Assembly: GCA_902784965.1 (NCBI GenBank)
Contig: CACZWU010000013.1
Coordinates: 1-51,100, forward strand
Direction of reading: 5' to 3'
From: an uncultured Bacteroidia bacterium
GTDB taxonomy: Bacteria > Bacteroidota > Bacteroidia > Bacteroidales > UBA932
Length of the DNA stretch: 51,100 nt
Shown one piece after another: positions 1-15,915 of this stretch (its first letter is position 1; each line of letters starts with the position of its first letter). The translations under genes and the position numbers were made by a program. The notes under the pieces are model-generated. The model worked only from the letters and a program-made list of their open reading frames with translations, was not told the origin of the DNA and did not search any database.

Positions 1-111
1 GACGGTGGTAGCTTCCACACCAGCTTCGCCATCACCATCAAACCGGAAGACGGCAACCGCTGGACGTATGTGATCCCGCAGAACGAGACGCAGTACAACC
101 ACGCCTTATAG
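1..111 (+). CDS. C-terminal end of an unidentified protein (5' end outside window)
   Basis: An open frame enters from the left edge and gives 36 residues ending in YNHAL before a TAG stop at 109-111. The piece is polar and beta-like (alternating hydrophobic residues, then PEDGNRW). It is too short to assign a family. A strong terminator hairpin follows 22 bases after the stop, which supports it being the real 3' end of a + strand gene or operon. Confidence 0.6.
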   Translation, partial: DGGSFHTSFAITIKPEDGNRWTYVIPQNETQYNHAL

Positions 112-133
112 ACGAGGCGCTGCCCCGAACCTT

Positions 134-170
134 AAAGCGGATGGCCTTCGGACCATCCGCTTTTTTTTTT
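134..170 (+). terminator. Rho-independent terminator
   Basis: An 11-bp perfect stem (134-144 with 153-163, AAAGCGGATGG paired with CCATCCGCTTT) encloses an 8-base loop and runs into ten T residues (161-170). It ends the transcript of the partial gene at 1-111 and separates it from the palindromic element that starts at 179. Confidence 0.9.
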
Positions 171-178
171 GTCACTTT

Positions 179-295
179 TTCCGCTGCAATGTACGCAGCA
201 GATTATCAGTCGTTTACTTCAACTCCTCCCCTTCTCCGCAGAGGGGAGGAGTTGAAGTAAGTTGTTGACTGACAAATGTGTACATTGCAGCGGAA
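179..295. repeat. Palindromic element, copy 1 (candidate RAYT-associated REP-like element)
   Basis: About 117 bp bounded by a perfect 16-bp inverted repeat (TTCCGCTGCAATGTAC at 179-194, its complement at 280-295). Inside is a perfect 19-bp stem (214-232 with 242-260) around a 9-base loop. Three more copies lie at 10502-10620, 12111-12227 and 13746-13866, and all four align in one orientation (CTCCTCCCC left of the loop, GGGGAGGA right of it). It sits between the terminator of the preceding gene and the promoter of the next, its right edge 18 bases before the -7 box at 314. It carries no gene; the short frames across it are translation artefacts of the palindrome. Confidence 0.85.
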
Positions 296-313
296 GAATC
301 ACGATATTTTTAG

Positions 314-321
314 TAACTTTG
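314..321 (+). promoter_or_regulatory. Bacteroidota -7 box of the MG2/plug gene
   Basis: TAACTTTG fits the Bacteroidota -7 consensus TAnnTTTG. Only five bases separate it from the ATG at 327, so the transcript probably starts at or next to the start codon. The -33 region falls on the right edge of palindromic element copy 1. Confidence 0.7.
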
Positions 322-326
322 CAATT

Positions 327-2615: not shown

Positions 2616-2621
2616 GGCCGG

Positions 2622-3011
2622 TCAGTACCTGTCCTTGAATTTCTTATTGGCGTTCTGGGAGGCCTTGGTGGTGACCAGGGCTACGCCGTTGGCACCGCGG
2701 ACGCCGTAGCTGGCGACGCGGGAGTCCGTGATAATCTCGATGGCAATGACATCGTGCGGGTCGATGTCATCGAGCGTCTGCACCTCGAAGCCGTCGACCA
2801 GCAGCAGGGGCTTGGTGCTGCCGTGGATAGTACTCACGCCACGGGCGGCGATGCCGTCGAAAAAGTGCGGGGAAATGGCTTCGATGTAGTCGTTGAGCGA
2901 ACGGTAATTCAGCCACGGCTGGTCGCTGTTGCCGCCGTCGTTGATCCAGCGGCCGCCTCCGCAGGATGCCAGCAGCAGGAGGCTGAGTAAGAAGATAAGG
3001 GTTCTGCGCAT
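2622..3011 (-). CDS. Small lipoprotein consisting of a TonB-plug-like domain
   Basis: 129 residues. The N-terminus has a hydrophobic run ending in a lipobox (LLASC, Cys17), so it is likely an exported lipoprotein. The rest looks like the end of a TonB-dependent receptor plug: PLLLVDGFEV, then the IEIITDSRVASYGVRGANG segment and VALVTTK, which corresponds to the usual YG-RGANGVI-ITTK signature. No beta-barrel follows, so it cannot be a receptor by itself. It may dock on a barrel encoded elsewhere or be a relic plug; this is inference. The -7 box TATCTTTG lies five bases before the ATG. Confidence 0.75.
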   Translation of the reverse strand: MRRTLIFLLSLLLLASCGGGRWINDGGNSDQPWLNYRSLNDYIEAISPHFFDGIAARGVSTIHGSTKPLLLVDGFEVQTLDDIDPHDVIAIEIITDSRVASYGVRGANGVALVTTKASQNANKKFKDRY

Positions 3012-3016
3012 GGTTG

Positions 3017-3024
3017 CAAAGATA
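3017..3024 (-). promoter_or_regulatory. -7 box of the plug lipoprotein gene
   Basis: On the minus strand this reads TATCTTTG, an exact TAnnTTTG match, five bases before the ATG at 3011. This predicts a leaderless or nearly leaderless mRNA. Confidence 0.7.
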
Positions 3025-3072
3025 GCAAAAATATCTTACGCCCCGTTTCCCGCCGCCGAGGCAGCGGAAGAA

Positions 3073-4392
3073 CTACCAGCTGACCTTCAGGATGTAAGGC
3101 ACGCCGTTCAGGACGTCGGTGCGGCCGGTGTACTGTTCGCCGTAGAAGCTGTCGACAGTGTCGACCGTCGTGGCGCAGTACACGGAGATGTAGTAGCGGC
3201 CGGGTCCCTCGACCGGGAGGGTGAAATGCTTGTCTGTGCCGTGGCCGACATTCTTCCAGCGCGCGTTCTCACGGAAGGCGAAGTCTTCCGCATCGGCGAA
3301 GAGCCACAGGTCGAAGCGGTCGGTCCATTTGGCCGGCGCAGCCAGCTCGACCGTGATCTCCTTCACGCCGCGCGGCACGTCTACCGCGAAATGATGGTAC
3401 TGGCGGTCGCCGATGCGGGTGAAGGCGGGATCGTTGTCGCTCGTGGTGCGGACCATCTCGCGCGCAACGCCATTCTCCAGCACGCCTTTGAGCCGGGCTT
3501 CCCCGTTGCCGTCCATCGCATAGCGGAGGAGGGCCGCCATGAGCTCCAGCCGGTCGCCTTCGACCATCCGCTCCGGGTGCGAGCCGATGACCACGACGCG
3601 GCCCGTCTGCGCCGATTCCTTCCAGGCCCAGGCGCTGACCTTGTCGTGGATGGGCTTCTTCAGTTGCAGCGTATCAGCGATATAGCGCAGCAGCACCTCC
3701 GTGCCGGCGGGCACGTTTTCCTCCATGTAGGCATAGCAGCCGCCATTGTGCCGGACCGAGTCGATCTGCATGTCGCCGCCGAAATCGTAGTAGCGGAGCA
3801 GGGGAGAGCCCGGTTCCACGCGCATGCCTGTGGCCGATTTCTCCAGTCCCGTGCCCACGGTCCAGCCGGGCCACAGGCACAGGTAGTCGGGACGCGGCAC
3901 ATAGCCCGTGTCGCGCACGGCGCCGAGCGAGACCATGAAAGCCCCGGCACAGGTTCCGACGATGCTGCCGCCGTTTTGCAGATAGGTGCGGAAATGCGCG
4001 CGGCCTTCCGCGGTCAGCGAGCGGGTGTGGCCCAGGGCCTTGCCGCCGTTGAGATAGACCGCGCGGAAGCGCGGGGCGCCGTCGGGGTAGAGCAGGATGC
4101 CGTTCTCGTCGAGGGCATTGCCTACCAGCCGGTCATTCTGCGCCAGCGTGTCAAGGCGGGTCATCTCGAGGCGCGGTGCAGTGCTGATCTGCTCCATCGA
4201 GAGGCCCAGCCAGTCGGCGGCCGGCAGGTCGGGATAGGAATTCAGGGAGCAGCCGCCGTCCATGAAGAGGTCTTTGTAGTAGCCGTCGGCGCGGACTTGC
4301 TGCGCGGCTTTTTGCGTGGCGGGCTGTGCGAAAGCGGCCGTGCCCGCCATCCACAGGACGAGCACGGCCGTTGCTATTTGCAAGCGTCTCAT
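3073..4392 (-). CDS. Secreted BPL_N / class I glutamine amidotransferase-like protein
   Basis: 439 residues with a signal peptide (about 1-22, ending AFAQ). The body matches the amidotransferase-like fold of BPL_N-domain proteins: a nucleophile elbow GTCAGAFM with Cys148, and SHPERM supplying His272 and Glu274, which gives a plausible Cys-His-Glu triad. The last ~120 residues look like a beta-sandwich of the bacterial pre-peptidase C-terminal type (YYISVYC...). Substrate unknown; these proteins lack the ammonia-transfer partner of real amidotransferases. Its ATG is two bases downstream of the stop of buk, so it is probably the last gene of the ackA-ptb-buk transcript, though a secreted protein there is a surprise. 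Confidence 0.75.
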   Translation of the reverse strand: MRRLQIATAVLVLWMAGTAAFAQPATQKAAQQVRADGYYKDLFMDGGCSLNSYPDLPAADWLGLSMEQISTAPRLEMTRLDTLAQNDRLVGNALDENGILLYPDGAPRFRAVYLNGGKALGHTRSLTAEGRAHFRTYLQNGGSIVGTCAGAFMVSLGAVRDTGYVPRPDYLCLWPGWTVGTGLEKSATGMRVEPGSPLLRYYDFGGDMQIDSVRHNGGCYAYMEENVPAGTEVLLRYIADTLQLKKPIHDKVSAWAWKESAQTGRVVVIGSHPERMVEGDRLELMAALLRYAMDGNGEARLKGVLENGVAREMVRTTSDNDPAFTRIGDRQYHHFAVDVPRGVKEITVELAAPAKWTDRFDLWLFADAEDFAFRENARWKNVGHGTDKHFTLPVEGPGRYYISVYCATTVDTVDSFYGEQYTGRTDVLNGVPYILKVSW

Positions 4393-4394
4393 TG

Positions 4395-5453
4395 TCAGTA
4401 TACTTTCGCGACTTCGCGGCCCTGCATCACGCTGAGGCCGTTGTGTGCCAGGGCACCCATTTCGTCCTCACCGGGATAGATCTTCACCGGAGCGATCCAG
4501 TCCACATAGGTAGCCAGGTCGGCCATCATGGCCTTGCCGTAGGCGATGCCGCCGGTTACCAGGATGGCGTTGACCTTGCCCTTGAGCACGGCTGCCATGG
4601 CGCCGATCTCCTTGGCGATGTTGTAGAGGTAGGCATCGGCGATGAGCTTGAAATGCGGGTCATCGGCCATCTTGTGCTCGATTTCGATGAAATCGTTCGT
4701 TCCCAGGTGGGCCACCGTACCGCCGCGGCCGTTGATCATCTTCTTGACTTCCAGCGGGGTATACTTGCCGCTGAAACAGATGTCAGCCAGCTGCTGGGCC
4801 GGAAGGGCGCCGGAGCGCTCGGGGCTGAACGGACCATCGCCGTTGAGGGCGTTGTTGGTGTCGATCACGCGGCCCTTGCAGTGGGCGCTGACCGAGGTGC
4901 CGCCGCCCAGGTGGACGACGATGAGGTTCAGGTCTTCATATTTCACGCCCTGCTGCGCCGCATACATCTTGGCGATGGCTTTCTGGTTGAGGGCGTGGAA
5001 GATGGAGATGCGCTTGAAGAGCGGATGCCCGGCCACGCGGGCCAGGTCGCAGAGCTCATCGACCACCACCGGGTCGGTGATGAAGGCGCGGCAGCCGATC
5101 TCCTGGGCGATGGCCTGGGCCAGGATGCCGCCCAGGTTGCTGGCGTGCTCGCCGTATTCGCCGCTGCGCAGGTCTGCGAGCATGCGGTCGTTGACCTCAT
5201 ACACGCCGGAGGGGATGGGACGCAGCAGGCCGCCGCGGCCCACGATGGCCGCAATCTCCTTGAGGGCGATGTCGTTCTCTTTCAGCGCGTCGACGATCAT
5301 TTTCTTCCGGAACTCGAACTGCGACACGATGTTGGGGTATTTCCCGATCTCCTCGGCGGAGTGCCGGAGGGTCTTGGTGAACACCTGTTCGTGGTCTTCG
5401 AACACCGCGATCTTGGTCGAGGTGCTTCCGGGATTGATGGCAAGAATCTTCAT
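4395..5453 (-). CDS. buk: Butyrate kinase
   Basis: 352 residues, the usual length of butyrate/branched-chain fatty acid kinases. It transfers phosphate from butyryl phosphate (or isobutyryl/isovaleryl phosphate) to ADP in the cytoplasm. Seen: the ASKHA phosphate-1 motif NPGSTSTK at residues 7-14, the VHLGGGTSV loop, GDGPFSPERSG, and the adenosine motif VTGGIAYG. The NPGSTSTK form separates it from acetate kinase (NCGSSSLK), which is encoded 1 kb upstream. It lies 12 bases after the stop of ptb, and the two enzymes form one pathway. Substrate preference between butyrate and branched acids cannot be told from the sequence. Confidence 0.92.
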   Translation of the reverse strand: MKILAINPGSTSTKIAVFEDHEQVFTKTLRHSAEEIGKYPNIVSQFEFRKKMIVDALKENDIALKEIAAIVGRGGLLRPIPSGVYEVNDRMLADLRSGEYGEHASNLGGILAQAIAQEIGCRAFITDPVVVDELCDLARVAGHPLFKRISIFHALNQKAIAKMYAAQQGVKYEDLNLIVVHLGGGTSVSAHCKGRVIDTNNALNGDGPFSPERSGALPAQQLADICFSGKYTPLEVKKMINGRGGTVAHLGTNDFIEIEHKMADDPHFKLIADAYLYNIAKEIGAMAAVLKGKVNAILVTGGIAYGKAMMADLATYVDWIAPVKIYPGEDEMGALAHNGLSVMQGREVAKVY

Positions 5454-5465
5454 ACTGCAGGCGGG

Positions 5466-6371
5466 CTATTTGGCGGTCAGGGCGGCCAGGGCGATGGAGT
5501 TGAGCTTGGTGTCGATGCTGTCGGCGCGGCTGCTGAGCACGCAAGGGGCCATGCCGCCAGCCATGATGGCAGCCTGGCGGACGCCCGTGCAGAGCTTGGA
5601 GTTGACCTTGTAGAACACGTTGGCGCTCTCGATGTTGGGGAAGAGGAGGCAGTCGGCGTCGCCGGCCACTTCGCTCTTGACTTTCTTGATGGCGACCGAT
5701 TCCGGGTCGATGGCCACGTCGATGGCCAGCGGTCCGTCGACCACGCAGCCGGCGATCTGTCCGCGGTCGGACATCTTGGCCAGCAGGGCGGCCTCGACGC
5801 AGGCGGGCATGCCGTCGAGCATCTGTTCGGTGGCGGCGATGGCAGCCACTTTCGGTTTCTCGATGCCGAGGGCCTTGGCGGTGGCGGCGAGGTACTTGCA
5901 GATGGCGAGTTTCTGTTTGAAATCAGGCAGCGGGATGACGGCCATGTCGCTCACGATCATGAGTTTGTGGTAGTTCGGGTTCTCGATCACGGCCACGTGG
6001 CTCAGGACGGCCTTCGGCGGGAGCAGGCCGCGCTCCTTGTTGAGGATGCCGCGCATGTATTTGTCGGTGCTGCAGAGACCCTTCATCAGGATGTCGCCAT
6101 CACCGTCGCGGACCATGGCTACGGCCTGTGCGATGGCGTCCAGCTCTTTCTTGTTGTCGATGATCGTGAAGATGGATGGGTCGATCTTCTCGTTCCTGCA
6201 GACTTCGAGGATCTTGTCCTTGTCGCCCACGAGGGTGACTTCGACAATGCCTTTCTCGATGGCCTTTGCGGCGGCGGTGATGGTGTGATCGTCTACGCCC
6301 CAGGCAGCGACCATGCGTTTCTTGGTGCGGGAACGGAGGGTTTCGAAAAGTTCGTTAAAGTTGGTAATCAT
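5466..6371 (-). CDS. ptb: Phosphate butyryltransferase
   Basis: 301 residues of the phosphate acetyl/butyryltransferase (PTA_PTB) family. It converts butyryl-CoA plus phosphate to butyryl phosphate and CoA, which buk next door then uses to make ATP. Visible family features are VIPLPDFKQK, SDRGQIAGCVVDGPLAIDVA and the C-terminal AGGMAPCVLSSRAD stretch. The length and pairing with buk favour Ptb over the longer Pta. It starts 13 bases after the stop of ackA, so the three genes are almost certainly co-transcribed. Confidence 0.88.
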   Translation of the reverse strand: MITNFNELFETLRSRTKKRMVAAWGVDDHTITAAAKAIEKGIVEVTLVGDKDKILEVCRNEKIDPSIFTIIDNKKELDAIAQAVAMVRDGDGDILMKGLCSTDKYMRGILNKERGLLPPKAVLSHVAVIENPNYHKLMIVSDMAVIPLPDFKQKLAICKYLAATAKALGIEKPKVAAIAATEQMLDGMPACVEAALLAKMSDRGQIAGCVVDGPLAIDVAIDPESVAIKKVKSEVAGDADCLLFPNIESANVFYKVNSKLCTGVRQAAIMAGGMAPCVLSSRADSIDTKLNSIALAALTAK

Positions 6372-6384
6372 ATCCGTATCAGTT

Positions 6385-7539
6385 TTATTTATTGTTTACA
6401 ATGTTCATCGTATCGGTGGCGATCACCAGTTCTTCGTTGGTGGTCACGGCCACGACCTTGACTTTCGAGCCGGGACGGCTGATGAGCACGTCCTTGCCGC
6501 GGACCTGGTTGACCTGCGGGTCGAAATCCACGCCGAGGAATTCGAGGCCCTCGCACACCTGCTCGCGCACCGGCCAGGCGTTCTCGCCGATACCGCCCGT
6601 GAAGACGATCAGGTCGACGCCGCCAAGTACGGCCGCATAGGCACCCACATATTTCTTGATGCTGTAGGCCAGCATCTTGCGGGCCAGGATGGCGCGCTCG
6701 TTGCCGGTCTTGGCTGCGGCTTCGATGTCGCGGTTGTCGGCCGATACGCCCGAGATGCCCAGCAGGCCGCTCTTCTTGTTGAGCAGGGCGTTGGCCTGCG
6801 CAAAGTCCAGATTTTCCTTTTCCTGGATGAAGGTTACGGCGCCTACGTCGAGGTTGCCCACGCGGGTACCCATCACCACGCCTTCGACCGGAGTGAAGCC
6901 CATCGAGGTATCAATGCTTTCGCCGTTGCGGATGGCAGTGATGGAGCTGCCGTTGCCCAGGTGGCAGGTGATGATGCGGCTCTTCCTGATGTCCATGCCG
7001 ACGAATTTGCAGGCCTTCTCGGCCACGTATTTGTGGCTGGTACCATGGAAGCCGTAACGGCGCAGGCGGTATTTCTCGTAGAAACGGTAGGGGAGCGCAT
7101 ACATGTAGGCGTAGTCGGGCATGGTCTGGTGGAAAGAGGTATCAAACACGGCGACCTGCGGTTTGCCGGGCATCAGCTTCTCGACGGCCTGGATGCCCAT
7201 CAGGTTGGCGGGGTTGTGGAGCGGCGCGAGCTCGCAGCAGCGGGCGATCTTGTCCATCACGTCGGGGGTCACACGGACGCTCCGGTCGAAAAATTCACCG
7301 CCGTGCGCTACGCGGTGGCCGACGGCGTCGATGCGGTCGAGTGAGTCGATGACGCCCTCTTCGGGGTTGACCAGTGCGTCGAGCACCAGTTTGATGCCGG
7401 CGGCGTGGTCGGGGACTTCGGCTTCGCCGATGCGTTCGACAAGGCCCTTCTTCATCAGGGTGTAATCTTGGGCGCTCCGCATATCGAGCAGCTGGTACTT
7501 CAGCGAGGAGCTTCCGCAGTTCAGGACAAGGATGATCAT
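6385..7539 (-). CDS. ackA: Acetate kinase
   Basis: 384 residues, slightly shorter than the typical ~400. It makes ATP and acetate from acetyl phosphate (propionate also possible). Motifs seen: LNCGSSSLKYQL (residues 6-17), FDTSFHQTMP, GFHGTSHKYV, HLGNGSSITAI and FTGGIGENA. It is the first gene of a minus-strand operon ackA-ptb-buk-amidotransferase. No phosphotransacetylase (pta) gene is in the window, so acetyl phosphate must come from a pta elsewhere or from relaxed Ptb activity. Confidence 0.95.
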   Translation of the reverse strand: MIILVLNCGSSSLKYQLLDMRSAQDYTLMKKGLVERIGEAEVPDHAAGIKLVLDALVNPEEGVIDSLDRIDAVGHRVAHGGEFFDRSVRVTPDVMDKIARCCELAPLHNPANLMGIQAVEKLMPGKPQVAVFDTSFHQTMPDYAYMYALPYRFYEKYRLRRYGFHGTSHKYVAEKACKFVGMDIRKSRIITCHLGNGSSITAIRNGESIDTSMGFTPVEGVVMGTRVGNLDVGAVTFIQEKENLDFAQANALLNKKSGLLGISGVSADNRDIEAAAKTGNERAILARKMLAYSIKKYVGAYAAVLGGVDLIVFTGGIGENAWPVREQVCEGLEFLGVDFDPQVNQVRGKDVLISRPGSKVKVVAVTTNEELVIATDTMNIVNNK

Positions 7540-7571
7540 ATTTTTCGTTTATTTTACAGGTTCGAATCATA

Positions 7572-7579
7572 CAAAGTTA
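7572..7579 (-). promoter_or_regulatory. -7 box of the ackA-ptb-buk operon
   Basis: The minus strand reads TAACTTTG, a full TAnnTTTG match, 32 bases before the ackA ATG. It is back to back with the + strand TACCTTG box at 7593-7599 that serves the ComEC-like gene, so 7540-7615 is a divergent promoter region. Confidence 0.65.
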
Positions 7580-7615
7580 GGAAAAAATATCGTACCTTGC
7601 TGAAAAATTGAGAGG

Positions 7616-8677
7616 ATGCGGCAAGGTAGGATGATCATCTGGTGTGCGCTGGCCGTTCTGGCCGGCAATGTGCTGGGCGATGCGCTCCCGCTGTCCCCGG
7701 CTGCCTATCTGGCTCTTTTGCTGGCTTTTGCGCTGGTCGCGGCCGTACGGCCGCGGTGGGGGTGGCTGTTGTTTTGCTTTCTGTGGATGGGGGCGGCGGC
7801 GGTGCAGCTGGGGCGGATGGCTCCGGCTGCCGGGCCGCCGCCGCTGGCCGTCTGGGCATCGGGGATCAAAGCCTCCTTTTCGGCCTGGCTGGGCGGGTTG
7901 CTGCCTCCGGGCGATGAACGGGCCGTCCTCCAGGCGCTTTCGATCGGCGACAAGAGCGCACTGACGCGCGATTTGCGCCTCGCGTACCGCGAGAGCGGCG
8001 CGATGCATCTGCTGGCGTTGAGCGGCCTGCATGTCGGGCTCGTGTATGCCCTGCTCGCGTGGCTGCTGAAGCCGCTGGGCGGTCACATCATTATGCGTTG
8101 GACGCGCAGCCTGCTCATCCTCTGCCTTTTATGGGCCTATGCCATCATCACCGGCATGAGCGCCTCGATCTCCCGTGCCGTGCTGATGATTACCTTCTAC
8201 GAGATATCGGGCCTCCTTTCAGGCGATCGCGACGGGCTGTCGGCGCTAGCTGGCAGCGCCTTGCTGCTTATGATCTTCCGGCCGGAATCGCCGCGCGACA
8301 TCGGCTTCCAGCTGTCCTACACGGCTGTCCTGTCCATCCTGCTGCTGCATCCCCGGCTCTCCGGCCTCCTGCAAAGCCGCTCGCGGCTGTTGACGCGGGT
8401 TTGGGAGCTGCTCAGCGTCAGCATCTGCTGCCAGGCTACATGCGGCGTCCTGGCCTGGATGTACTTCGGTACATTTCCTCGGTATTTCCTGCTGACGACC
8501 CTGCTGGCCATCCCCCTGACCACCGCCGTCATGTATGCCACGGCAGCCACTGTCGCCGCAGCCGGCCTCTCCGCGCTGTTTCCCATTCTCGTCCCTGTCG
8601 CCACATGGACGGCCGAAGCCCTCCGCTGGCTCATCCATCTGCTGAATACCCTCCTCCGGCTCATCGCCTCCCTGTGA
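7616..8677 (+). CDS. Short ComEC/Rec2-family membrane protein
   Basis: 353 residues, largely hydrophobic with about nine predicted membrane segments. The Competence domain is marked by MHLLALSGLHVGL, the ComEC signature, and by GFQLSYTAVLSILL. ComEC forms the inner-membrane channel for single-stranded DNA during natural transformation. This copy is much shorter than typical family members and has neither the C-terminal metallo-beta-lactamase domain nor a clear OB-fold DUF4131 region, so it may be a reduced Bacteroidota form or not function in uptake. Start chosen at ATG 7616, 17 bases after the TACCTTG box; ATG 7631 is an alternative. Confidence 0.8.
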   Translation: MRQGRMIIWCALAVLAGNVLGDALPLSPAAYLALLLAFALVAAVRPRWGWLLFCFLWMGAAAVQLGRMAPAAGPPPLAVWASGIKASFSAWLGGLLPPGDERAVLQALSIGDKSALTRDLRLAYRESGAMHLLALSGLHVGLVYALLAWLLKPLGGHIIMRWTRSLLILCLLWAYAIITGMSASISRAVLMITFYEISGLLSGDRDGLSALAGSALLLMIFRPESPRDIGFQLSYTAVLSILLLHPRLSGLLQSRSRLLTRVWELLSVSICCQATCGVLAWMYFGTFPRYFLLTTLLAIPLTTAVMYATAATVAAAGLSALFPILVPVATWTAEALRWLIHLLNTLLRLIASL

Positions 8678-8680
8678 TAT

Positions 8681-9088
8681 TTACAGGAGTACCTTGATGA
8701 CGTACCAAAGTCCGATGGCGCCGAACAGGACGATGAGGATGGTGGGCCAAAGGCCCAGCGTTGAGACCATCGAGTCCCACACCAGGTCGAAATTGATAGC
8801 CAGCCAGATGCAGAGGATCGTAAAGACCAGGATTCCAAGGGCGTAGAGCAATGCTTTGCCCCGATAACCGATAATCAGGAACCAGGCTTCAAGGATGACG
8901 GCCGCTCCGAGCAGATAGACGAACCCTTTCCAGCCGGTGAGAACCCGGCTTAACCAGACTTGTGCAAAGGGGAAAAAGAAATAGCTGATCACGCCGACGG
9001 CGACCAGGCCGATGGCCAGTATAGTTCCATAGGCCTTACGGTCGGTTTTCTTTTCTTCTTCCAATTCTGCTTTGCTTTTCGTTACCAT
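8681..9088 (-). CDS. Small membrane protein of unknown function
   Basis: 135 residues: a charged N-terminus (KAELEEEKKTDRK) followed by about four hydrophobic segments (ILAIGLVAVGVISYFFF; VYLLGAAVILEAWFLI; LLYALGILVFTILCIWLAI; ILIVLFGAIGLWYVIKVLL). I do not recognise the family. It lies three bases after the stop of the gntP-like gene, so it is probably the second gene of that transcript. A role linked to the permease is only a guess. Confidence 0.7.
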   Translation of the reverse strand: MVTKSKAELEEEKKTDRKAYGTILAIGLVAVGVISYFFFPFAQVWLSRVLTGWKGFVYLLGAAVILEAWFLIIGYRGKALLYALGILVFTILCIWLAINFDLVWDSMVSTLGLWPTILIVLFGAIGLWYVIKVLL

Positions 9089-9091
9089 ACG

Positions 9092-10450
9092 TCAGAATAT
9101 CAAGCTGAGAATAAAAACTTCCACCATCGCGGCCAGTCCGAGGACCAGCGTCATCAGGGTCTGCGTGCGGTAGCCGTCCCGCAGGGTCAGCCTGCCGAAG
9201 CTGGTAACCACCCAGAAGTACGAGTCGTTGGCATGGGAGACCGTCATGGCGCCGGCGCCGATGGCAACCACTACCAGCGCAGCATCGACGGGCGTTACGA
9301 AGCCCAACGCAGCCATCAGCGGCGCCAGGATGCCAGCCGTCGTAGTGATGGCCACCGTCGAGGACCCTTGCGCGCTCTTCAGCACCGCGGACAGCAGGAA
9401 CGGGAAGAAGATGCCCACGGCTTTGGACATATCGGCGTGGGACGTAATGAAATGCACCAGGTCGGACGAAGCGATGACCTTGCCCAGCACTCCTCCCGCC
9501 GCCGTCACGAAGAGGATGGGTCCGACATACTTCAGCGTGTCGTTGGTCAATGTATAGAAATCTGCGCCTTTGCCTGCACGAAACAACTGGATAATGGCCA
9601 GCACGACTCCCACCGAAAGGGCCATGATGGGCGTTCCAAGAAAGACCAGGATGTCGGCGAAACAGCCTTCTCCGTGCATCATGGACACGAAAGATGCGAT
9701 GGCCATCAACAGAATGGGCACGAGGATCGGCGCTATGGCGTCCAGCGCGCCGGGCAATTTTCCGTATTCGGCCTTCAGTTCTTCGTAGGTCTTGACGGTC
9801 TCGCCGCTGGCTGCCGTTTCGTCGGCACTCTTGACTTTCTGGCCGATCCGCCGGGCAAAGAAGTACCCCGCAATCAGTGGAAAAACGGAGCAAAGAGCGC
9901 CCATCCCGATGACCAGCAGCAGGTTGTGCTCCAAGCCGAGTGCCTGTGCCGCGGCGAGCGGGCCAGGTGTGGGCGGGATGAACACGTGGGCGATGAAAAG
10001 GCCGCACGACAGGCACATCGTCATGGTGACGCTTGACGTACCGGTCTGCCGCACCAGCGCCTTACGGATGGGATTGAGCATCACAAATCCGCTATCACAG
10101 AATACAGGGACCGACACCACCCAACCCATCAATTCCATAGCTATTTCCGGATGCTTCCGCCCTACGAGTCGGATGACCATGTCGGCAAGCTGGAATGCGG
10201 CGCCTGTCTTCTCCAATATGGCGCCGATCAAGGCACCCAGGATGATGACGATGCCGATGGAGGTAAACGTTCCGGCAAAGCCACTGCCGATGACGCCCGG
10301 TATCTGTCGGAGCGGGATCCCCGCCAGCAATGCCAGTACCAGCGATACGGCGAGAATAGCCAGGAACGGATGCACCTTGAATTTCGAGATCAGCAGGATC
10401 ATGGCGACGATGGCCACGACGAATGCGATGATGAGGGGGATGCCAGTCAT
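9092..10450 (-). CDS. GntP-family permease (gluconate or related hydroxy-acid transporter)
   Basis: 452 residues with about twelve membrane segments. GntP/gluconate:H+ symporter hallmarks include FLAILAVSLVLALLAGIPL near the N-terminus, GWVVSVPVFCDSGFVML, HVFIPPTPGPLAAA, KSAQGSSTVAI and VSHANDSYFWVV. The family carries gluconate, glycerate or similar sugar acids inward; the exact substrate cannot be read here. Start set at ATG 10450: an in-frame TTG at 10462 overlaps the probable -7 box (TAACTTG, minus strand, 10460-10466). No sugar-acid catabolic gene is adjacent, only the small membrane protein downstream. Confidence 0.88.
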   Translation of the reverse strand: MTGIPLIIAFVVAIVAMILLISKFKVHPFLAILAVSLVLALLAGIPLRQIPGVIGSGFAGTFTSIGIVIILGALIGAILEKTGAAFQLADMVIRLVGRKHPEIAMELMGWVVSVPVFCDSGFVMLNPIRKALVRQTGTSSVTMTMCLSCGLFIAHVFIPPTPGPLAAAQALGLEHNLLLVIGMGALCSVFPLIAGYFFARRIGQKVKSADETAASGETVKTYEELKAEYGKLPGALDAIAPILVPILLMAIASFVSMMHGEGCFADILVFLGTPIMALSVGVVLAIIQLFRAGKGADFYTLTNDTLKYVGPILFVTAAGGVLGKVIASSDLVHFITSHADMSKAVGIFFPFLLSAVLKSAQGSSTVAITTTAGILAPLMAALGFVTPVDAALVVVAIGAGAMTVSHANDSYFWVVTSFGRLTLRDGYRTQTLMTLVLGLAAMVEVFILSLIF

Positions 10451-10459
10451 AATTGATGG

Positions 10460-10466
10460 CAAGTTA
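10460..10466 (-). promoter_or_regulatory. -7 box of the gntP-like gene
   Basis: The minus strand reads TAACTTG, a partial match to TAnnTTTG, nine bases before the ATG at 10450. Palindromic element copy 2 begins 36 bases further upstream. Confidence 0.5.
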
Positions 10467-10501
10467 CGAAAAAAAGCGATGCCATGTGCCGCCTGTCCCT
10501 A

Positions 10502-10620
10502 TTTCCGCTGCAATGTACACATTTGATTAACAGCTGGTTGTGGAAACTCCTCCCTTTGAAAATAAAGGGGAGGAGTTCTCGTAAAGTATTGAATGACTGC
10601 TGCGTACATTGCAGCGGAAA
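10502..10620. repeat. Palindromic element, copy 2
   Basis: 119 bp bounded by a perfect 17-bp inverted repeat (10502-10518 and 10604-10620). The inner hairpin pairs AACTCCTCCCTTT with AAAGGGGAGGAGTT (about 10545-10578) with one bulged base. It shares the outer arm exactly with copy 1. It occupies the space between two divergent promoters, that of the gntP-like gene (minus) and that of the phosphoesterase gene (plus), and lies 35 bases before the latter's -7 box. Confidence 0.85.
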
Positions 10621-10655
10621 GTATGGAAAAACTTGCTGAAATGGAGAGAAAATCG

Positions 10656-10663
10656 TATCTTGG
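10656..10663 (+). promoter_or_regulatory. -7 box of the phosphoesterase gene
   Basis: TATCTTGG differs from TAnnTTTG at one position and lies five bases before ATG 10669. A TTG at 10633-10635, about 20 bases upstream, fits the -33 element. The transcript probably begins at or beside the start codon. Confidence 0.6.
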
Positions 10664-10668
10664 CAGAT

Positions 10669-12063
10669 ATGAAACGCAGAGATTTTATAAAGACATCGGC
10701 GCTGCTGGCTACGGCGGCAGGAACCGGTGAACTTTTGAAAGCATCTTCCCTTCCTTCGATGGACGAGGGTCCGGAAGCAGAGGCTGTTCCGGATGCGGTC
10801 CGGGCCGATGACCCTGTCGGCGACCGGCTCATCATTTCGGCACCGATGCTGCAGAATTTTGCGGCCACGTCCATGGGCGTCACCTTTGCCGTGAGTGCGC
10901 TGGCCAATGGCTATGTGCTTGTGGGCGAGCGCCCCGGCCTGTCGGATGCCCGGAAAGTGCTGTGCGGCGGCTACCGGGTCACAGACATCGATGACCGGGT
11001 CATCCGCGTCAGGCTGACCGGCCTCAAGCCGTCCACGAAATACTACTACCGGATTGGCGCCGACCGTATCAGCTATAAGGGCGGATACAAGATGAAAGTT
11101 CTTGGCAACGAGGAAGATCCACGAACCTATAGTTTTACGACAGCCGGCGAAGGATCGGATGCGCATTTCTGTGTCATCAACGACACGCATGTCCGCATGG
11201 AGCCTTTCGGTCTGGCCGTCGAAAAGATTGCCGAACTGGCACCGGCCTGCGTCATCTGGAACGGCGACGCCAGCAACGTGGAGGAGACGGTCGAGGACCA
11301 GATCCGCATTTTCCTGAATCCGGCCATCGAGCGGAAGGACTATGCCGCTGAGATACCATATCTTTTCTGCCCCGGCAACCACGACAACCGCGGCATGGCC
11401 AACCGGCATCTGGAGCGCGTGTGGATGTTCCGGCAACCCGAGGAGCGGAAGCCCCGCGACTGGGACCTGGGCCGGAATTACGCCATCCGCCTGGGTGACA
11501 TTGCGTTGATTGGCCTGGATACCGCTGAGGATAAGTTGGACACCAACCCGAAATTCGCCGGCCTGTTCACCAGCGGGCCCTATCGCGAATCGCAGACGGA
11601 ATGGCTGCGCGATGCACTTGCGCGCGAAGAGATCCGCACGGCCCCTTTCCTCGTGGCGTGCTGTCACATTCCGCTCTTCGACAGCAATCCCCGGCACAAT
11701 CCGGGCGATGTTGCTCCCGCCGACAGCGATCCGCAGTACAGCACGGACTATGCCTACTGGCAGCGCACCTGCGCCCGCATGTGGGCACCGTTACTGGAAG
11801 CGGCAGGCTGTCAGCTGGTTATCACTGCGCATCAGCACCGCTATCGCTATGACGCCCCAACGTCCGAACGCCCTTGGGCACAAATCGTCGGCGGTGGTCC
11901 GGAGATGGGCTTCACTGGCTCGGGCGACAAGCGTCGCGAAGACGCCGGGAAGTTCCCTACCGTCATCGAAGGGGCCGTCCGTAATGGCCAACTGGAGATA
12001 GCCGTCCACAATCTTGCGACCGGTGCCGTCCGGGACCGCTTCTCGTTCGAACCCCGTCGATAA
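10669..12063 (+). CDS. Tat-exported purple-acid-phosphatase-like metallophosphoesterase
   Basis: 464 residues from ATG 10669; an upstream in-frame ATG at 10609 lies in the palindromic element. The N-terminus MKRRDFIK plus a hydrophobic stretch is a twin-arginine signal. A fibronectin-like N-terminal domain of purple acid phosphatases follows (LTGLKPSTKYYYRIG). The catalytic calcineurin-type domain shows the metal ligands in order: NDTH, WNGDASN, CPGNHDN, CCHIP and TAHQHRY. It would hydrolyse phosphomonoesters or diesters outside the cytoplasm; substrate unknown. The gene stands alone between palindromic element copies 2 and 3. Confidence 0.88.
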   Translation: MKRRDFIKTSALLATAAGTGELLKASSLPSMDEGPEAEAVPDAVRADDPVGDRLIISAPMLQNFAATSMGVTFAVSALANGYVLVGERPGLSDARKVLCGGYRVTDIDDRVIRVRLTGLKPSTKYYYRIGADRISYKGGYKMKVLGNEEDPRTYSFTTAGEGSDAHFCVINDTHVRMEPFGLAVEKIAELAPACVIWNGDASNVEETVEDQIRIFLNPAIERKDYAAEIPYLFCPGNHDNRGMANRHLERVWMFRQPEERKPRDWDLGRNYAIRLGDIALIGLDTAEDKLDTNPKFAGLFTSGPYRESQTEWLRDALAREEIRTAPFLVACCHIPLFDSNPRHNPGDVAPADSDPQYSTDYAYWQRTCARMWAPLLEAAGCQLVITAHQHRYRYDAPTSERPWAQIVGGGPEMGFTGSGDKRREDAGKFPTVIEGAVRNGQLEIAVHNLATGAVRDRFSFEPRR

Positions 12064-12110
12064 CACCTCCATTCGTTCGCGTCCGGCCATCCGGCCTCGC
12101 GCTCCCCTTA

Positions 12111-12227
12111 TTGCGCTGCAACGGACGCAACTGATTGACAATCGTTTACAGAAAGTCCTCCCCTTCGCTGCGAAGGGGAGGACTTTCTGTAAGGCGCTGA
12201 ATGACTGATGTGCACATTGCAGCAGAA
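12111..12227. repeat. Palindromic element, copy 3
   Basis: About 117 bp. The inner hairpin is the best of the four copies: a perfect 22-bp stem (12146-12167 with 12171-12192) closed by a 3-base loop (CTG). The outer inverted repeat is imperfect (TTGCGCTGCAA against TTCTGCTGCAA). The stem middle reads CAGAAAGTCC where copy 1 has CTTCAACTCC, yet both arms changed together so pairing is kept. It lies 120 bp upstream of the transposase gene start and after the stop of the phosphoesterase gene, for which the stem may also act as a terminator. Confidence 0.85.
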
Positions 12228-12250
12228 GGATAGTGGGGTGAACGATCGGT

Positions 12251-12264
12251 GCAAATCGATTTGC
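12251..12264. promoter_or_regulatory. 14-bp perfect palindrome upstream of the transposase promoter
   Basis: GCAAATCGATTTGC is its own reverse complement. Its right half contains the TTTG that would be the -33 element for the GAACTTTG box at 12284-12291. A palindrome over a -33 site is a typical place for a dimeric repressor; which protein binds is not known. Confidence 0.4.
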
Positions 12265-12283
12265 AAAAACCGAAAATGTTCCC

Positions 12284-12291
12284 GAACTTTG
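12284..12291 (+). promoter_or_regulatory. Possible -7 box of the transposase gene
   Basis: GAACTTTG matches TAnnTTTG except for the first base. It lies 20 bases after the TTTG of the palindrome at 12251-12264 and would give a leader of about 50 bases before ATG 12347. Confidence 0.45.
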
Positions 12292-12346
12292 AAATGCAGT
12301 AGCTGCATGGTGTGGCTCCTGTCAATTCTTTTTAGAGGCGAACGAT

Positions 12347-13264
12347 ATGAAGGGAAGGAAAAAACTTATTGTCAGGGCAAATGCCGTACATCATGTCTAC
12401 CAGAACACCCGGAACGGATATTTGATCTTTTATTCCGTCAAGGACTATTTAATCCTATTTTCAGTAATCACAATCATCGCCCGCCGCTACGGGATTCAGA
12501 TCCTGGGTATCAGCATGATGCCTGATCATATACACCTTATCGTTTATGTGCGTGATCCTGAACGGTTCAGGGCATTTGTTAGAGACTATACCAGCATTTT
12601 TACAAAGCTCTACAATCGGCATTACGGGCTTACGGGTCCGTTATTCAATACGCCTTTCGGCCGTGCTCCCAAGTTGATACACAAAAAGGTCCGGTCGGCC
12701 ATCGCCTATGTTTATAACAATCCGGTCGAGGGCCACCTGGCGCTTAAGGTGGAAGATGGCCAATGGAACTTCCTGGCCTATGCAAACGCTAAGCATCCCT
12801 TTTCAGAAAAGCTGCGCATCGACAAGGCCCGGTGGGCTCTGCGGAAGGCGCTTTATACCGTAAAAGCGTGCAGGAAAGGTAGGAGGTGGCTGGATTATAC
12901 GGAAATCGAAAAGGTTACGGATCATCTGCCGCCCCGTGAATTGCGACAGTTTACAGATTATACGATTCGAAAGTACAATTGCATCGATTATGATGCGGCT
13001 ATCTCCTACTATGGGTCGTACGAAGAAATGGTGACTGCCTTAAATGCTAACACCGGCAGCGAGTATGACTTGACGGAAGATACCTATGCCAAGGATTATC
13101 GGATTTACAAGACAATGATCCTGGCATTATGTTATGGAATAAAGATGGAGACGATGGAAAAGGTGCTCCGTATTCCCCGCCCAGACAGGTATCGACTGAA
13201 ACGGAGTTTGATACGAAACAAGAGTGCGACGGACCTGGAAGTCGCCAAACTACTTCGACTTTGA
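12347..13264 (+). CDS. REP-associated tyrosine transposase (Y1/HUH, RAYT type)
   Basis: 305 residues. The N-terminal Y1_Tnp domain (about 1-130) carries the HUH metal motif HIH at residues 61-63 in MMPDHIHLIVYV, and the YVYNNPVEGHL segment (from Tyr121) matches the catalytic-tyrosine helix of RAYTs (usual form Y-I-x-x-N-P-V). Such enzymes nick and join single-stranded DNA at palindromic REP-type repeats. The C-terminal ~170 residues are basic with a possible helix-turn-helix near the end (METMEKVLRIPRPDRYRLKR), perhaps for repeat recognition. No inverted or target-site repeats of an insertion sequence flank it. Palindromic elements lie 120 bp upstream and about 480 bp downstream. The gene is more AT-rich than its neighbours. 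Its 3' end overlaps the oppositely oriented phosphatase gene by 15 bp. Confidence 0.88.
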   Translation: MKGRKKLIVRANAVHHVYQNTRNGYLIFYSVKDYLILFSVITIIARRYGIQILGISMMPDHIHLIVYVRDPERFRAFVRDYTSIFTKLYNRHYGLTGPLFNTPFGRAPKLIHKKVRSAIAYVYNNPVEGHLALKVEDGQWNFLAYANAKHPFSEKLRIDKARWALRKALYTVKACRKGRRWLDYTEIEKVTDHLPPRELRQFTDYTIRKYNCIDYDAAISYYGSYEEMVTALNANTGSEYDLTEDTYAKDYRIYKTMILALCYGIKMETMEKVLRIPRPDRYRLKRSLIRNKSATDLEVAKLLRL

Positions 13265-13726
13265 TGGGGGAAGGGTGGCGAGCAGTGCGTGGCAGCCTTT
13301 CAGGATGTCTTCGTATGCAGTTTTGAAATCGCGGGTATACCAGGGATCGGCCACGTTGCGGTGCTCGCCGGCGTAGTCGAGCAGCAAGTGTATTTTTTCT
13401 TCTGGATCGCCGCCGGCGATGCGTTGGATGCCACGGATATTGGCCTCATCCATGGCAATGATCATATCATAATTCTCGTAGTCAGAAGCTTTCATTTGAC
13501 GGGCAATTCTTTGTCCATCGTAGGCGATGCCGTGATGGCGCAAGATTTCTGCTGCCGGCGGATAGATCGGATTGCCCCATTCTTCCTCGCTGACGGCAGC
13601 TGAGGCGATCTCGAATTCGTCGGAACGGCCAGCCTCGGCAGCCAGATGCCGCATCATGGCCTCGGCCATCGGACTCCTGCAAATATTTCCCAGGCAAATG
13701 AACAGAATTTTCTTCTTTTTTGTCAT
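13250..13726 (-). CDS. Low-molecular-weight protein tyrosine phosphatase
   Basis: 158 residues from ATG 13726; the longer start at 13744 lies before the promoter. It hydrolyses phosphotyrosine in the cytoplasm. The P-loop CLGNICRS (Cys11, Arg17 of the C-X5-R motif) is at the N-terminus, and the acid DPWY loop (ADPWYTRDF) near the end, as expected. In bacteria these often oppose tyrosine kinases of polysaccharide export, but no such genes are nearby. The -7 box TATCTTTG (minus, 13732-13739) is five bases before the ATG, and palindromic element copy 4 starts immediately upstream of it. Its last codons overlap the transposase gene. Confidence 0.92.
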   Translation of the reverse strand: MTKKKKILFICLGNICRSPMAEAMMRHLAAEAGRSDEFEIASAAVSEEEWGNPIYPPAAEILRHHGIAYDGQRIARQMKASDYENYDMIIAMDEANIRGIQRIAGGDPEEKIHLLLDYAGEHRNVADPWYTRDFKTAYEDILKGCHALLATLPPSKSK

Positions 13727-13731
13727 GGTCG

Positions 13732-13739
13732 CAAAGATA
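13732..13739 (-). promoter_or_regulatory. -7 box of the tyrosine phosphatase gene
   Basis: Minus strand TATCTTTG, an exact consensus match, five bases before ATG 13726. The left edge of palindromic element copy 4 (13746) is only six bases upstream, so the element itself supplies the -33 region. Confidence 0.7.
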
Positions 13740-13745
13740 ATCATT

Positions 13746-13866
13746 TTTTTCGCTGCAACGGACGCACTTGACGGACAGGCGATTATGGAAAGTCATCCCC
13801 TTTCTGAAAACAGGTAGGACTTTCTGTAAGATGCTGAAATACTGCTGCGTACATTGCAGCGAAAAA
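13746..13866. repeat. Palindromic element, copy 4 (degenerate)
   Basis: 121 bp bounded by a perfect 13-bp inverted repeat (TTTTTCGCTGCAA at 13746-13758, complement at 13854-13866). The inner stem has decayed: GAAAGTC still pairs with GACTTTC, but the CTCC/GGAG part no longer matches (CATCCCC against GGTAGGA). Its left half is closest to copy 3 (GCTGCAACGGACGCA). It fills the gap between the divergent promoters of the tyrosine phosphatase (minus) and the glycosylase-like gene (plus). Confidence 0.8.
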
Positions 13867-13889
13867 TTGTGGATGTACAAAAGAATACG

Positions 13890-13897
13890 TATTTTTA
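13890..13897 (+). promoter_or_regulatory. -7 box of the uracil-DNA-glycosylase-like gene
   Basis: TATTTTTA, one base off TAnnTTTG, four bases before ATG 13902. A TTGT at 13867, just outside palindromic element copy 4, fits the -33 site. Confidence 0.5.
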
Positions 13898-13901
13898 CGA
13901 C

Positions 13902-14471
13902 ATGGAAACAGAGCGACATCCCTTTGAGCCTTTCCTGCCGGAAAAGGCGACCATCCTTTTCCTCGGCAGTTTTCCGCCGCAGCCGAAACGATGGTCGATG
14001 CCGTTCTATTACCCGAATTGGAACAACGATTTCTGGCGGGTAATGGGGTTGCTGTTTTACGAGGACAAAGACCATTTCGCCGTGCCCGGACAAAAACGGT
14101 TTGACCAGGCCAGGATAGAGGATTTCTGCCGGGCGCAGGGACTGGCGCTCTACGACACGGCCTGCGAGGTCAAACGTCTGAAAGACAATGCTTCCGACAA
14201 GTTTCTCGAGGTGGTGACGCCGACTGACCTGCCGGCCCTGCTGGCACGCATCCCCGAATGCCGGACGCTGGTGACCACCGGCCAGAAGGCCACGGACGTC
14301 ATCGTCGATGCTTTCAACTGCGCAGAGCCGCCCGTCGGCGGGTATGTTGCGTTATCGACGGGCCAAAGCCCGCTGACTTTCTGGCGGATGCCTTCCACCT
14401 CCCGCGCCTATCCGCTCGCCCTGGAAAAGAAGGCTGCCTTCTACCGCCGACTCTGGTCCCATTTGCGCTAA
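13902..14471 (+). CDS. Uracil-DNA-glycosylase-superfamily protein
   Basis: 189 residues from ATG 13902 (an ATG at 13854 lies in the palindromic element). The GSFPPQPKRWSMPFYYP segment at the N-terminus and the later LVTTGQKATDVI stretch fit the fold of the uracil/mismatch-specific DNA glycosylase superfamily, where the first motif forms the base-binding pocket. The C-terminal LSTGQSPLTFWRMPSTSRAY would hold the DNA-intercalating loop, with PSTSRA in place of the usual HPS-type motif. It likely removes damaged bases or is a related nucleotide-binding protein; the exact class is not certain. It stands alone, with the MATE gene starting 26 bases later from its own promoter. Confidence 0.75.
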   Translation: METERHPFEPFLPEKATILFLGSFPPQPKRWSMPFYYPNWNNDFWRVMGLLFYEDKDHFAVPGQKRFDQARIEDFCRAQGLALYDTACEVKRLKDNASDKFLEVVTPTDLPALLARIPECRTLVTTGQKATDVIVDAFNCAEPPVGGYVALSTGQSPLTFWRMPSTSRAYPLALEKKAAFYRRLWSHLR

Positions 14472-14482
14472 CACTTTTTTTG

Positions 14483-14490
14483 TATATTTG
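14483..14490 (+). promoter_or_regulatory. -7 box of the MATE-ettA-obg gene row
   Basis: TATATTTG, an exact TAnnTTTG match, six bases before ATG 14497. It probably drives the tightly packed genes from 14497 to 19260. Confidence 0.7.
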
Positions 14491-14496
14491 CCAGAT

Positions 14497-15915
14497 ATGG
14501 CAGAAAACATTCCCCTTGAACTGGGTACGGAGCCGGTGGGCAAGTTGCTGAAGAAGTACGCCACGCCTGCGATCATCGCGATGACCGCCTCCTCGCTCTA
14601 CAATATGGTGGACAGCATCTTCATCGGGCAGGGATGCGGCCCGATGGCCATTTCCGGCCTGGCGCTGACCTTCCCGCTGATGAACCTGTCGGCCGCCTTC
14701 GGCACGCTTGTGGGCGTGGGCGGCGCCACCCTGATCTCGGTGCTGCTGGGACAGAAGAACTATCTGGTGGCCAAAAAAGTGTTGAGCAACGTCTTTATCC
14801 TGAATATTCTGGTCGGCGTGCTCTTCTCGGCCATTTCCTTGATCTTTCTCGATCCGATCCTCCGCTTCTTCGGTGCGAGTGACGCCACGCTGCCTTTCGC
14901 CCGCAGCTACATGATCCCGATCCTGGCCGGCAACATCATCACGCACCTCTACTTCGGCCTGAACTCCATTGTCCGCGTGTCGGGACACCCGCAGAAAGCG
15001 ATGTATGCTACCATCCTGACAGTCACCCTCAACATGATTCTCGACCCGATCTTCATCTTCGTCTTCAAGATGGGCATCCAGGGCGCGGCTATCGCGACGG
15101 TCATTTCCCAAGCCACCTCGCTGGTCTGGATTATGTACATCATTTGCGACAGGCGCGAGTTCCTGCACCTGTCGCGCGAGACCTTCGGCCTGGACTGGGG
15201 CATCGCCCGGCGATCGCTGGCCATCGGCCTGGCGCCTTTCCTGATGAACGTGGCTTCGTGCTTCGTGGTGATCTTCATCAACAACCAGTTCAAGAAATAC
15301 GGCGGCGACCTGGCTATAGGTGCTTACGGCATCGTGAACCGGCTGGTGTTCCTCTTCCTGATGATCGTGATGGGTTTCACGCAGGGCATGCAGCCCATCG
15401 CGGGATACAACTACGGCGCGAAGCAGTACGACCGTGCGTTGGAAGTGCTGCGGCTGACCATCAAGTGTGCCCTCGTGGTGACGTGTACCTGCTTTCTGGT
15501 GGGTATGCTCATCCCGCGGGCGGCGGTTTCTCTCTTTACGCACGACGAGGAACTGATCGGCCTGGCGGCGCATGGCTTCCGCATCACGGTGCTGTTGTTC
15601 TGCATCGTCGGCCGTCAGATGGTGATCTCGAACTTTTTCCAGAGCATCGGTATGGCCAACAAGGCGATTTTCCTGTCGCTCTCCCGCCAGCTGATCTTCC
15701 TGCTGCCCTTCCTGGCCATCCTGCCGCTCTGGTTCGGCGCGGATGGCGTGTGGTTCAGCATGCCGGCCTCCGACCTGGCAGCCGTGGTGGTCTCGGAGAT
15801 CATGCTGGCCGGCCTCAAGAAAAACTTCCGGCGCGAGATGGCTGCCGCGGAAGCAGCCGGGAAAGTGGAAGAAGCACATGTCCCTGAGCCTATTGAAGTA
15901 ACTGATACAATTTGA
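14497..15915 (+). CDS. MATE-family multidrug/metabolite exporter
   Basis: 472 residues with about twelve membrane segments in two similar halves, typical of MATE (NorM/DinF-type) antiporters driven by Na+ or H+. Family signatures: ATPAIIAMTASSLYNMVDSIF at the N-terminus (helix 1), IFIGQGCGP and, in the second half, GFTQGMQPIAGYNYGAKQY. Substrate unknown. Start is ATG 14497; a TTG at 14488 overlaps the -7 box. The next gene begins six bases after its stop. It is a separate paralogue from the MATE-ATPase fusion at 41741. Confidence 0.92.
   Translation: MAENIPLELGTEPVGKLLKKYATPAIIAMTASSLYNMVDSIFIGQGCGPMAISGLALTFPLMNLSAAFGTLVGVGGATLISVLLGQKNYLVAKKVLSNVFILNILVGVLFSAISLIFLDPILRFFGASDATLPFARSYMIPILAGNIITHLYFGLNSIVRVSGHPQKAMYATILTVTLNMILDPIFIFVFKMGIQGAAIATVISQATSLVWIMYIICDRREFLHLSRETFGLDWGIARRSLAIGLAPFLMNVASCFVVIFINNQFKKYGGDLAIGAYGIVNRLVFLFLMIVMGFTQGMQPIAGYNYGAKQYDRALEVLRLTIKCALVVTCTCFLVGMLIPRAAVSLFTHDEELIGLAAHGFRITVLLFCIVGRQMVISNFFQSIGMANKAIFLSLSRQLIFLLPFLAILPLWFGADGVWFSMPASDLAAVVVSEIMLAGLKKNFRREMAAAEAAGKVEEAHVPEPIEVTDTI

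Follow-up and report, generated by a model that had tools for sequence, protein, structure and literature searches.

The window analysed here, a 51,100-nt stretch that constitutes an entire contig in the 78%-complete, 1.87-Mb metagenome-assembled genome of a rumen-type Bacteroidales bacterium, carries a RAYT gene and four palindromic elements which probably belong to one system, namely, a RAYT with REPIN-like non-autonomous repeats. It works like REPIN/RAYT and most likely is a variant of that system, although GTAG is mostly lacking in class A and the RAYT score lies below the curated cut-off. The element architecture, the matching of element classes to RAYT clades, the lineage-specific inner hairpins at unlinked sites, the lack of excess target duplications in 60 copies and the predicted RAYT fold are what the computations show. 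The relevant features of the window are the following:

179..295, plus strand: class A element 1; outer arms 183-197 / 277-291, inner arms 214-232 / 242-260
10503..10619, plus strand: class A element 2; outer arms 10507-10521 / 10601-10615, inner arms 10545-10557 / 10565-10577
12111..12227, plus strand: class A element 3 (el2), upstream of the RAYT gene; outer arms 12115-12129 / 12209-12223, inner arms 12146-12168 / 12170-12192 (23 bp, perfect)
12347..13264, plus strand: RAYT-type Y1/HUH transposase gene, complete, 305 aa; H61-I-H63, Y121 in YVYNNP
13250..13744, minus strand: low-molecular-weight protein tyrosine phosphatase gene, separating the RAYT gene from the downstream element
13748..13864, plus strand: class A element 4 (el3); outer arms 13752-13766 / 13846-13860, inner stem degenerate

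The transposase

The identification of the gene at 12347-13264 as a Y1/HUH transposase in the first-pass annotation is borne out by a Pfam Y1_Tnp match above the cut-off (27.6 bits, cut-off 23) and by the catalytic residues, which are in place: in an alignment of 38 sequences including the window RAYT, H61, H63, Y121 and N125 are invariant and P126 nearly so. Against the curated REP_Tyr_transpos family (NF047646, cut-off 80), the protein scores 36.2 bits. The fold is a prediction: the AlphaFold model (mean pLDDT 89.5) finds its best PDB fold match in the REP-bound RAYT 4er8 (E 3.1e-5, 142 columns; TM 0.63 by target length). The helical C-terminal part, predicted to begin around residue 150, was also modelled alone (pLDDT 75, pTM 0.45), with a best PDB fold match at just E 1.6; a sequence comparison of this part with PDB yielded one chain (E 0.97) and nothing convincing. 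HTH_23 is weakly detectable in the C-terminal parts of 3 of 20 homologues (best E 0.0033) and in the window protein not at all.

The genome encodes two RAYTs, the second of which, on contig C26, is 42% identical to that of the window, and no genome of the genus has more than five RAYT matches, two of those five being pieces of one gene. Few copies with low mutual identity within a genome are a trait of RAYTs. An IS200/IS605-type insertion sequence with near-identical multiple copies was considered and rejected, given the 42% identity of the two resident RAYTs and the lack of any same-genome pair close to each other on the tree. A search for relatives on plasmids found none, and that in phages returned a single weak partial match; among the matches listed, the named records with close RAYTs belong to uncultured Bacteroidales sampled from the rumen or comparable sources.

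The four elements

A covariance model confirmed the four nested palindromes of 117 bp, at 179, 10503, 12111 and 13748, and their common orientation: elements 1–4 score 114.1, 112.2, 108.7 and 103.5 bits on the plus strand and 105.8, 80.8, 78.7 and 70.6 bits on the minus strand. Among the direct repeats of the window, they form the largest family. Outer arms of 20–22 nt (90–95% complementary, spacing 79 nt) were reported at three of the four elements, as were inner arms of 13–23 nt, and all four fold as DNA much better than shuffled sequences (z -12.9, -7.9, -7.4 and -4.8, respectively; 0/200 shuffles as good in each case). The copy at 13748 has a degenerate inner stem. The claim that two elements directly flank the transposase gene fails for the downstream one, because the phosphatase gene intervenes. 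The remainder of the window was correctly described as free of copies, no fifth match being found on the contig at E <= 0.01. The genome in its 78% complete state has six class A sites (E < 1e-10), four in the window and one each on contigs C15 and C6; the binomial chance of at least four of six falling on the window contig, computed post hoc, is 8e-6. No Rfam score of the elements came near a gathering cut-off. A second 117-nt direct repeat (45067-45183 and 46345-46461, 73% identical) lies within long open frames and is not an element.

An unlikely alternative is that the elements are now host sequences, such as transcription terminators or hairpins acting in mRNA stability or regulation, which selection and template switching maintain, with the RAYT a bystander or a protein domesticated for another task. 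The sequences bordering the elements, T-rich and pyrimidine-rich on the left and A-rich and purine-rich on the right, would suit this interpretation. However, none of 15 terminator-like sites found by a simple scan of positions 1-15000 overlaps an element, element 1 follows directly upon a separate terminator-like hairpin (134-163), and elements 2 and 4 lie between divergent open frames, where no terminator is expected.

Element classes and RAYT clades

The RAYT on contig C26 is likewise flanked by elements, of similar plan and different sequence; the two RAYTs of this genome bear different element classes, A in the window and B on C26. We compared 60 RAYT-like gene loci, the C26 locus among them, 14 of which (L083-L096) contain distant, weakly matching genes and were excluded from the counts. 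All classes are built on one common plan, consisting of an outer arm, a CTGA..TCAG-like motif, a central hairpin, frequently with a TTA foot before it and frequently with TAA after it, then the motif again and the second outer arm. Each RAYT clade has outer arms of its own, with GCTGCAA in class A, GCTGGAG in B, GTGGAG in C, CGTGGC in D and CTTGGC in E. Two conserved inverted ends, a hairpin-forming spacer and RAYT-specific repeat families are all traits of REPINs. In class A, the outer arm is mostly preceded by TTCC or TTGC, and the 5' foot of the inner hairpin is TTAC in 28 of 52 parsable elements. Near one diverged RAYT, three element-like palindromes are arranged in tandem, 129 bp apart (L081:6458-6824).

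Of the central stem pairs, 11 of 18 vary on both sides among class A elements; for class B, the figure is 19 of 21. Covariation over the whole structure amounts to 0.190 in class A (shuffled mean 0.118; slid partners at most 0.098) and 0.294 in class B (shuffled mean 0.171; slid partners at most 0.120), with two of five measures in class A, those of both-side changes and further pair types, not standing out from the shuffles (75 and 83 of 500 reach the observed values). A cloverleaf with two additional small CTGA...TCAG hairpins was rejected. Among class A elements, the left hairpin is paired in 81% of cells with no both-side changes and the right one in just 46%, where the helix may be one column off. 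In class B, the small hairpins pair in 72% and 70%. The CTGA/TCAG motif is conserved; the small hairpins remain putative.

The correspondence between elements and transposases was assessed at 47 long-RAYT loci, including that of the window, scored with models A–E. Recognized elements lie on both sides of the gene at 30 loci, upstream only at three, downstream only at one and on neither side at 13, in at least six of which the upstream and downstream flanks have a repeat in common (L066, L070, L071, L077, L079 and L081). The two flanks agree in class at all 30 two-sided loci (shuffled mean 7.55, maximum 18 in 10,000 shuffles). On the tree of 46 RAYTs, of which 35 were labelled from their flanking elements and 11 unlabelled ones were not counted, the five classes require four changes, the least possible number (shuffled mean 19.2); among these labels, those of L037, L043 and L068 were taken from a single flank, while those of L048 and L059 come from an earlier element comparison, the model scan having found none in its range. 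The RAYT tree gives strong support to groups A, D and E and weak support to B (68/24). In seven of eight genomes with at least two such loci, the resident RAYTs differ in element class. Element density is 0.99 per kb near RAYTs versus 0.09 per kb elsewhere, as estimated with models trained on these very loci. An association between elements and RAYTs beyond chance is thus supported, class matching clade and elements being rare outside the genus, and part of the matching could be mere descent, because RAYTs and their flanking elements are linked and co-inherited. Judging from these sequences, RAYT and element look like an enzyme and a substrate that diverged together; the matching of class to clade is left unexplained by the host-sequence alternative.

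The same data bear on the exceedingly improbable possibility that the elements are miniature transposons mobilized by a cut-and-paste (DDE) transposase, the RAYT being nearby by chance. Multiple copies of ~117 bp with terminal inverted repeats would be typical enough of such transposons; however, the element ends track RAYT clades, the elements concentrate at RAYT genes and, as described below, target duplications are not above chance.

Distribution across the genus

Presence was surveyed in 40 genomes of the genus, with thresholds of E <= 1e-4 for elements and E <= 1e-10 for RAYTs. The class A model (R1) matched 25 genomes, R2 matched 26 and R3 24, with at least 92 matches in G002; these match numbers cover both strands, and the three models partly match one another's elements. 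RAYTs were found in 23 genomes. The expectation that the elements track the transposase is borne out insofar as R1 elements occur in 22 of the 23 RAYT genomes versus 3 of the 17 RAYT-less ones (Fisher 3.9e-7); element and RAYT presence follows ancestry, though, which confounds this contrast. A phylogeny-aware test was powerless, its four independent pairs comprising one concordant, no discordant and three without a difference; the underlying rpoB tree covers 25 genomes, the other 15 of the 40 having no usable rpoB. The sole RAYT genome without an R1 match (G005) has R2 matches, the RAYT-less genomes with R1 matches are G010, G017 and G018, and in three RAYT-negative genomes (G010, G019 and G035) a different type of Y1 gene is matched, less strongly (E 1e-9 to 1e-7). 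In other genera, R1 matched two of 60 genomes, weakly (E 1.4e-5 and 4.4e-8, under stricter filters), and weak RAYT matches occur in five of 60.

The tracking is also imperfect, as at least five genomes keep class A elements without a clade A RAYT: in G006, G028 and G033 the RAYTs found belong to other clades only, and in G010 and G017 there is no such RAYT at E <= 1e-10. The class is therefore not strictly dependent on its RAYT. Incompleteness of the assemblies weakens these absences; in G010, however, the deletion of the gene is visible. That elements outlast the matching RAYT in some genomes favours their interpretation as host sequences.

Element turnover and hairpin changes

Element turnover away from the RAYT genes was studied in 60 dispersed class A elements, mostly chosen among the highest-ranking matches and hence non-random, within a total of 90 aligned elements. 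The sequence CTCCTCCCC, initially considered a family constant, is not constant; instead, the inner stem varies by host lineage. A GA-type inner stem, defined post hoc from the alignment, is present in 33 of 34 dispersed elements from genomes of one RAYT subclade (G002, G003, G022, G036 and G039) and in none of nine from those of the window subclade (G000, G023, G026 and G032), and the elements at the RAYT loci divide in the same way (13/13 in the subclade of G002 versus 0/10 in that of the window). Outside both sets, and not counted, the GA type occurs in 4/6, 5/5 and 5/5 elements of G017, G028 and G033, and in 0/2, 0/4 and 0/2 of G006, G027 and G007, respectively. Dispersed elements are more alike within than between genomes (0.761 vs 0.716; 0/1000 permutations as high).

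Insertion appears to leave no target duplication: a 5-mer common to the 15-nt flanks was found in 3 of the 60 copies, with 3.2 expected, and old copies could have lost theirs. No clean pair of filled and empty sites was found for a lone element. When the DNA flanking element 1 was compared with 15 genomes, its left and right flanks matched different places; among 20 loci fetched via these flanks, R1 was silent in 12 and R2 recognized one site, in L199. In L037 and L043, a candidate empty site following the phosphatase gene has different neighbouring DNA and provides no clean pair. Five elements occupy the same site in two genomes each (flanks 92–100% identical); two of these pairs are identical and three differ at 5–9% of positions.

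In two of the three differing pairs, with nearly identical flanks (L226/L259 and L255/L238), the loop of one element is the exact reverse complement of the other (10/10 and 9/9 bases). Among 20 pairs compared, the loop was flagged as flipped in six (two weakly), as being in the same orientation in ten and as undecided in four; one of the flagged flips is that of element 2 of the window relative to L037:1296-1412. Template switching between the arms of inverted repeats is described as homogenizing the arms and inverting the spacers (PMC8604942). The inversions therefore suggest hairpin formation inside the cell and are no sign of RAYT action, and compensatory changes are a weaker proof of selection, because template switching yields them without selection. 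Both kinds of change fit template switching and would suit elements that are now host sequences.

The phosphatase neighbour and RAYT loss

The phosphatase gene adjoins the clade A RAYT at all 11 loci. In G010 (L143), a 1.2-kb segment with el2 and the RAYT gene is cleanly missing relative to window positions 12063-13280, both outer elements being retained. Such clean absence, along with the many class B, D and E loci where elements lie near the gene, to one side of it or to either side, could suggest that element, RAYT and, where present, second element form an autonomous IS-like unit, with single elements as solo ends. We regard this as very unlikely: same-genome RAYTs are never close on the tree, the two in this genome being 42% identical, unlike those of an active IS; clade A always resides by the same phosphatase gene; and the loss in G010 can be put down to the 9-bp direct repeat which, in its relative G039, bounds the segment that G010 has lost. 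G010 is paired with G039 in the phosphatase tree (99/94) and stands beside G022, unstarred, in the rpoB tree, in both cases among RAYT carriers. On comparison of these sequences, the loss of the RAYT in G010 thus reads as an ordinary deletion.

In relation to L037, a close relative, the window block 9094-11914 including element 2 is inverted, and collinearity returns at the start of el2, the inversion (window 9094-12230) breaking at the RAYT-upstream element. The phosphatase gene was not found in 14 of the 40 genomes, including G006, G014, G017, G028, G033 and G034, all six of which have R1 matches and no clade A RAYT. The phosphatase gene and the clade A RAYT may have been lost jointly; one shared loss or incomplete assemblies could account for the pattern.

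A possible mechanism

Considering the system as a RAYT with REPIN-like repeats, the Y1/HUH enzyme would most likely bind the element in its folded, single-stranded form, on the lagging-strand template, recognizing its clade-specific ends and hairpin; Y121 would cut the element strand, which would then be pasted or copied elsewhere without target duplication. Such a process would result in a small to moderate element population, with six known sites in this genome and dozens in some relatives. The earlier proposal that the transposase acts on the elements gains from the RAYT-type enzyme and from the match between class and clade; the action itself, that is, binding, cleavage and strand transfer, with this enzyme as the copier of these elements, we infer.

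A more speculative thought, which we hold to be doubtful, is that the genus harbours at least five diverged RAYT–element pairs on one plan, in which the C-terminal domain reads the outer arms and the HUH domain the central hairpin. If true, a single-strand transposase would read its substrates through a modular recognition code, and these substrates would also reshape the genome as points of inversion and deletion.

Comparison with known systems

The first-pass annotation had placed elements of ~117 bp with nested repeats in a different, larger class than REP palindromes. This view does not hold, as REPINs, described in 2011 in P. fluorescens SBW25 as RAYT-associated inverted pairs, already measure from 71 (GI) to 110 bp (PMC3116915); because REPINs share both the size and the plan, size makes no new class. 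As in the REPIN/RAYT system (Bertels and Rainey 2011, PMC3116915), a gene is accompanied by dispersed doublets with inverted ends and a spacer that forms a hairpin and shows compensatory changes, and each RAYT is tied to its own repeat group. Unlike the REPINs of that description, class A elements mostly lack GTAG/GTGG (GT[AG]G on either strand in 18/90) and have longer outer arms; the RAYT, unlike that of SBW25, is a 305-aa protein with a C-terminal domain, found in Bacteroidales with several specificities within one genus.

Long inverted repeats on either side of RAYT-like genes are on record since 2013, under the name of TIRtrons/TIRYTs (Di Nocera 2013, PMC3733652); these, together with TnpA-Y1 subclass 2.1 (Quentin 2018, PMC6006769), resemble our system in the location of the gene within such repeats. 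In these accounts, the repeats are partly self-complementary, some with dispersed copies, as here, and the proteins are long, with an HTH-like C-terminal region, to which the weak HTH_23 matches noted above may or may not correspond. The differences lie in the GGGGWSAS motif, present in just 3 of 90 class A elements, in the tyrosine motif (mostly Y[LV]YNNP here, YIELNP/Y[IV]HLNP there) and in protein length (305 aa versus a median of 238). Subclasses 2.4 and 2.6 (PMC6006769) are both known from Bacteroidetes, the former with ‘double foot’ REPs and YIxNNP, the latter with atypical secondary structures flanking the gene; they differ from our RAYT in median length (194 and 179 aa) and in NHxH in place of DHIH, and the REPs of 2.4 are described as bearing the GT[AG]G foot that class A mostly lacks. 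A search of the open-access literature for such elements in Bacteroidales led to no more than the general papers cited here, which is no proof of absence.

Unusual features, then, are the coexistence of several specificities, the lack of GTAG in most class A elements and a 305-aa RAYT whose C-terminal domain is unmatched in PDB. REP recognition in vitro has been solved for three RAYT–REP pairs, from E. coli, Stenotrophomonas and Marinomonas (PMC8266576). The 35 RAYTs of five labelled classes, some co-resident in one genome, offer natural matched and mismatched substrates, mostly GTAG-less, and, because these natural partners are swappable, render specificity directly testable.
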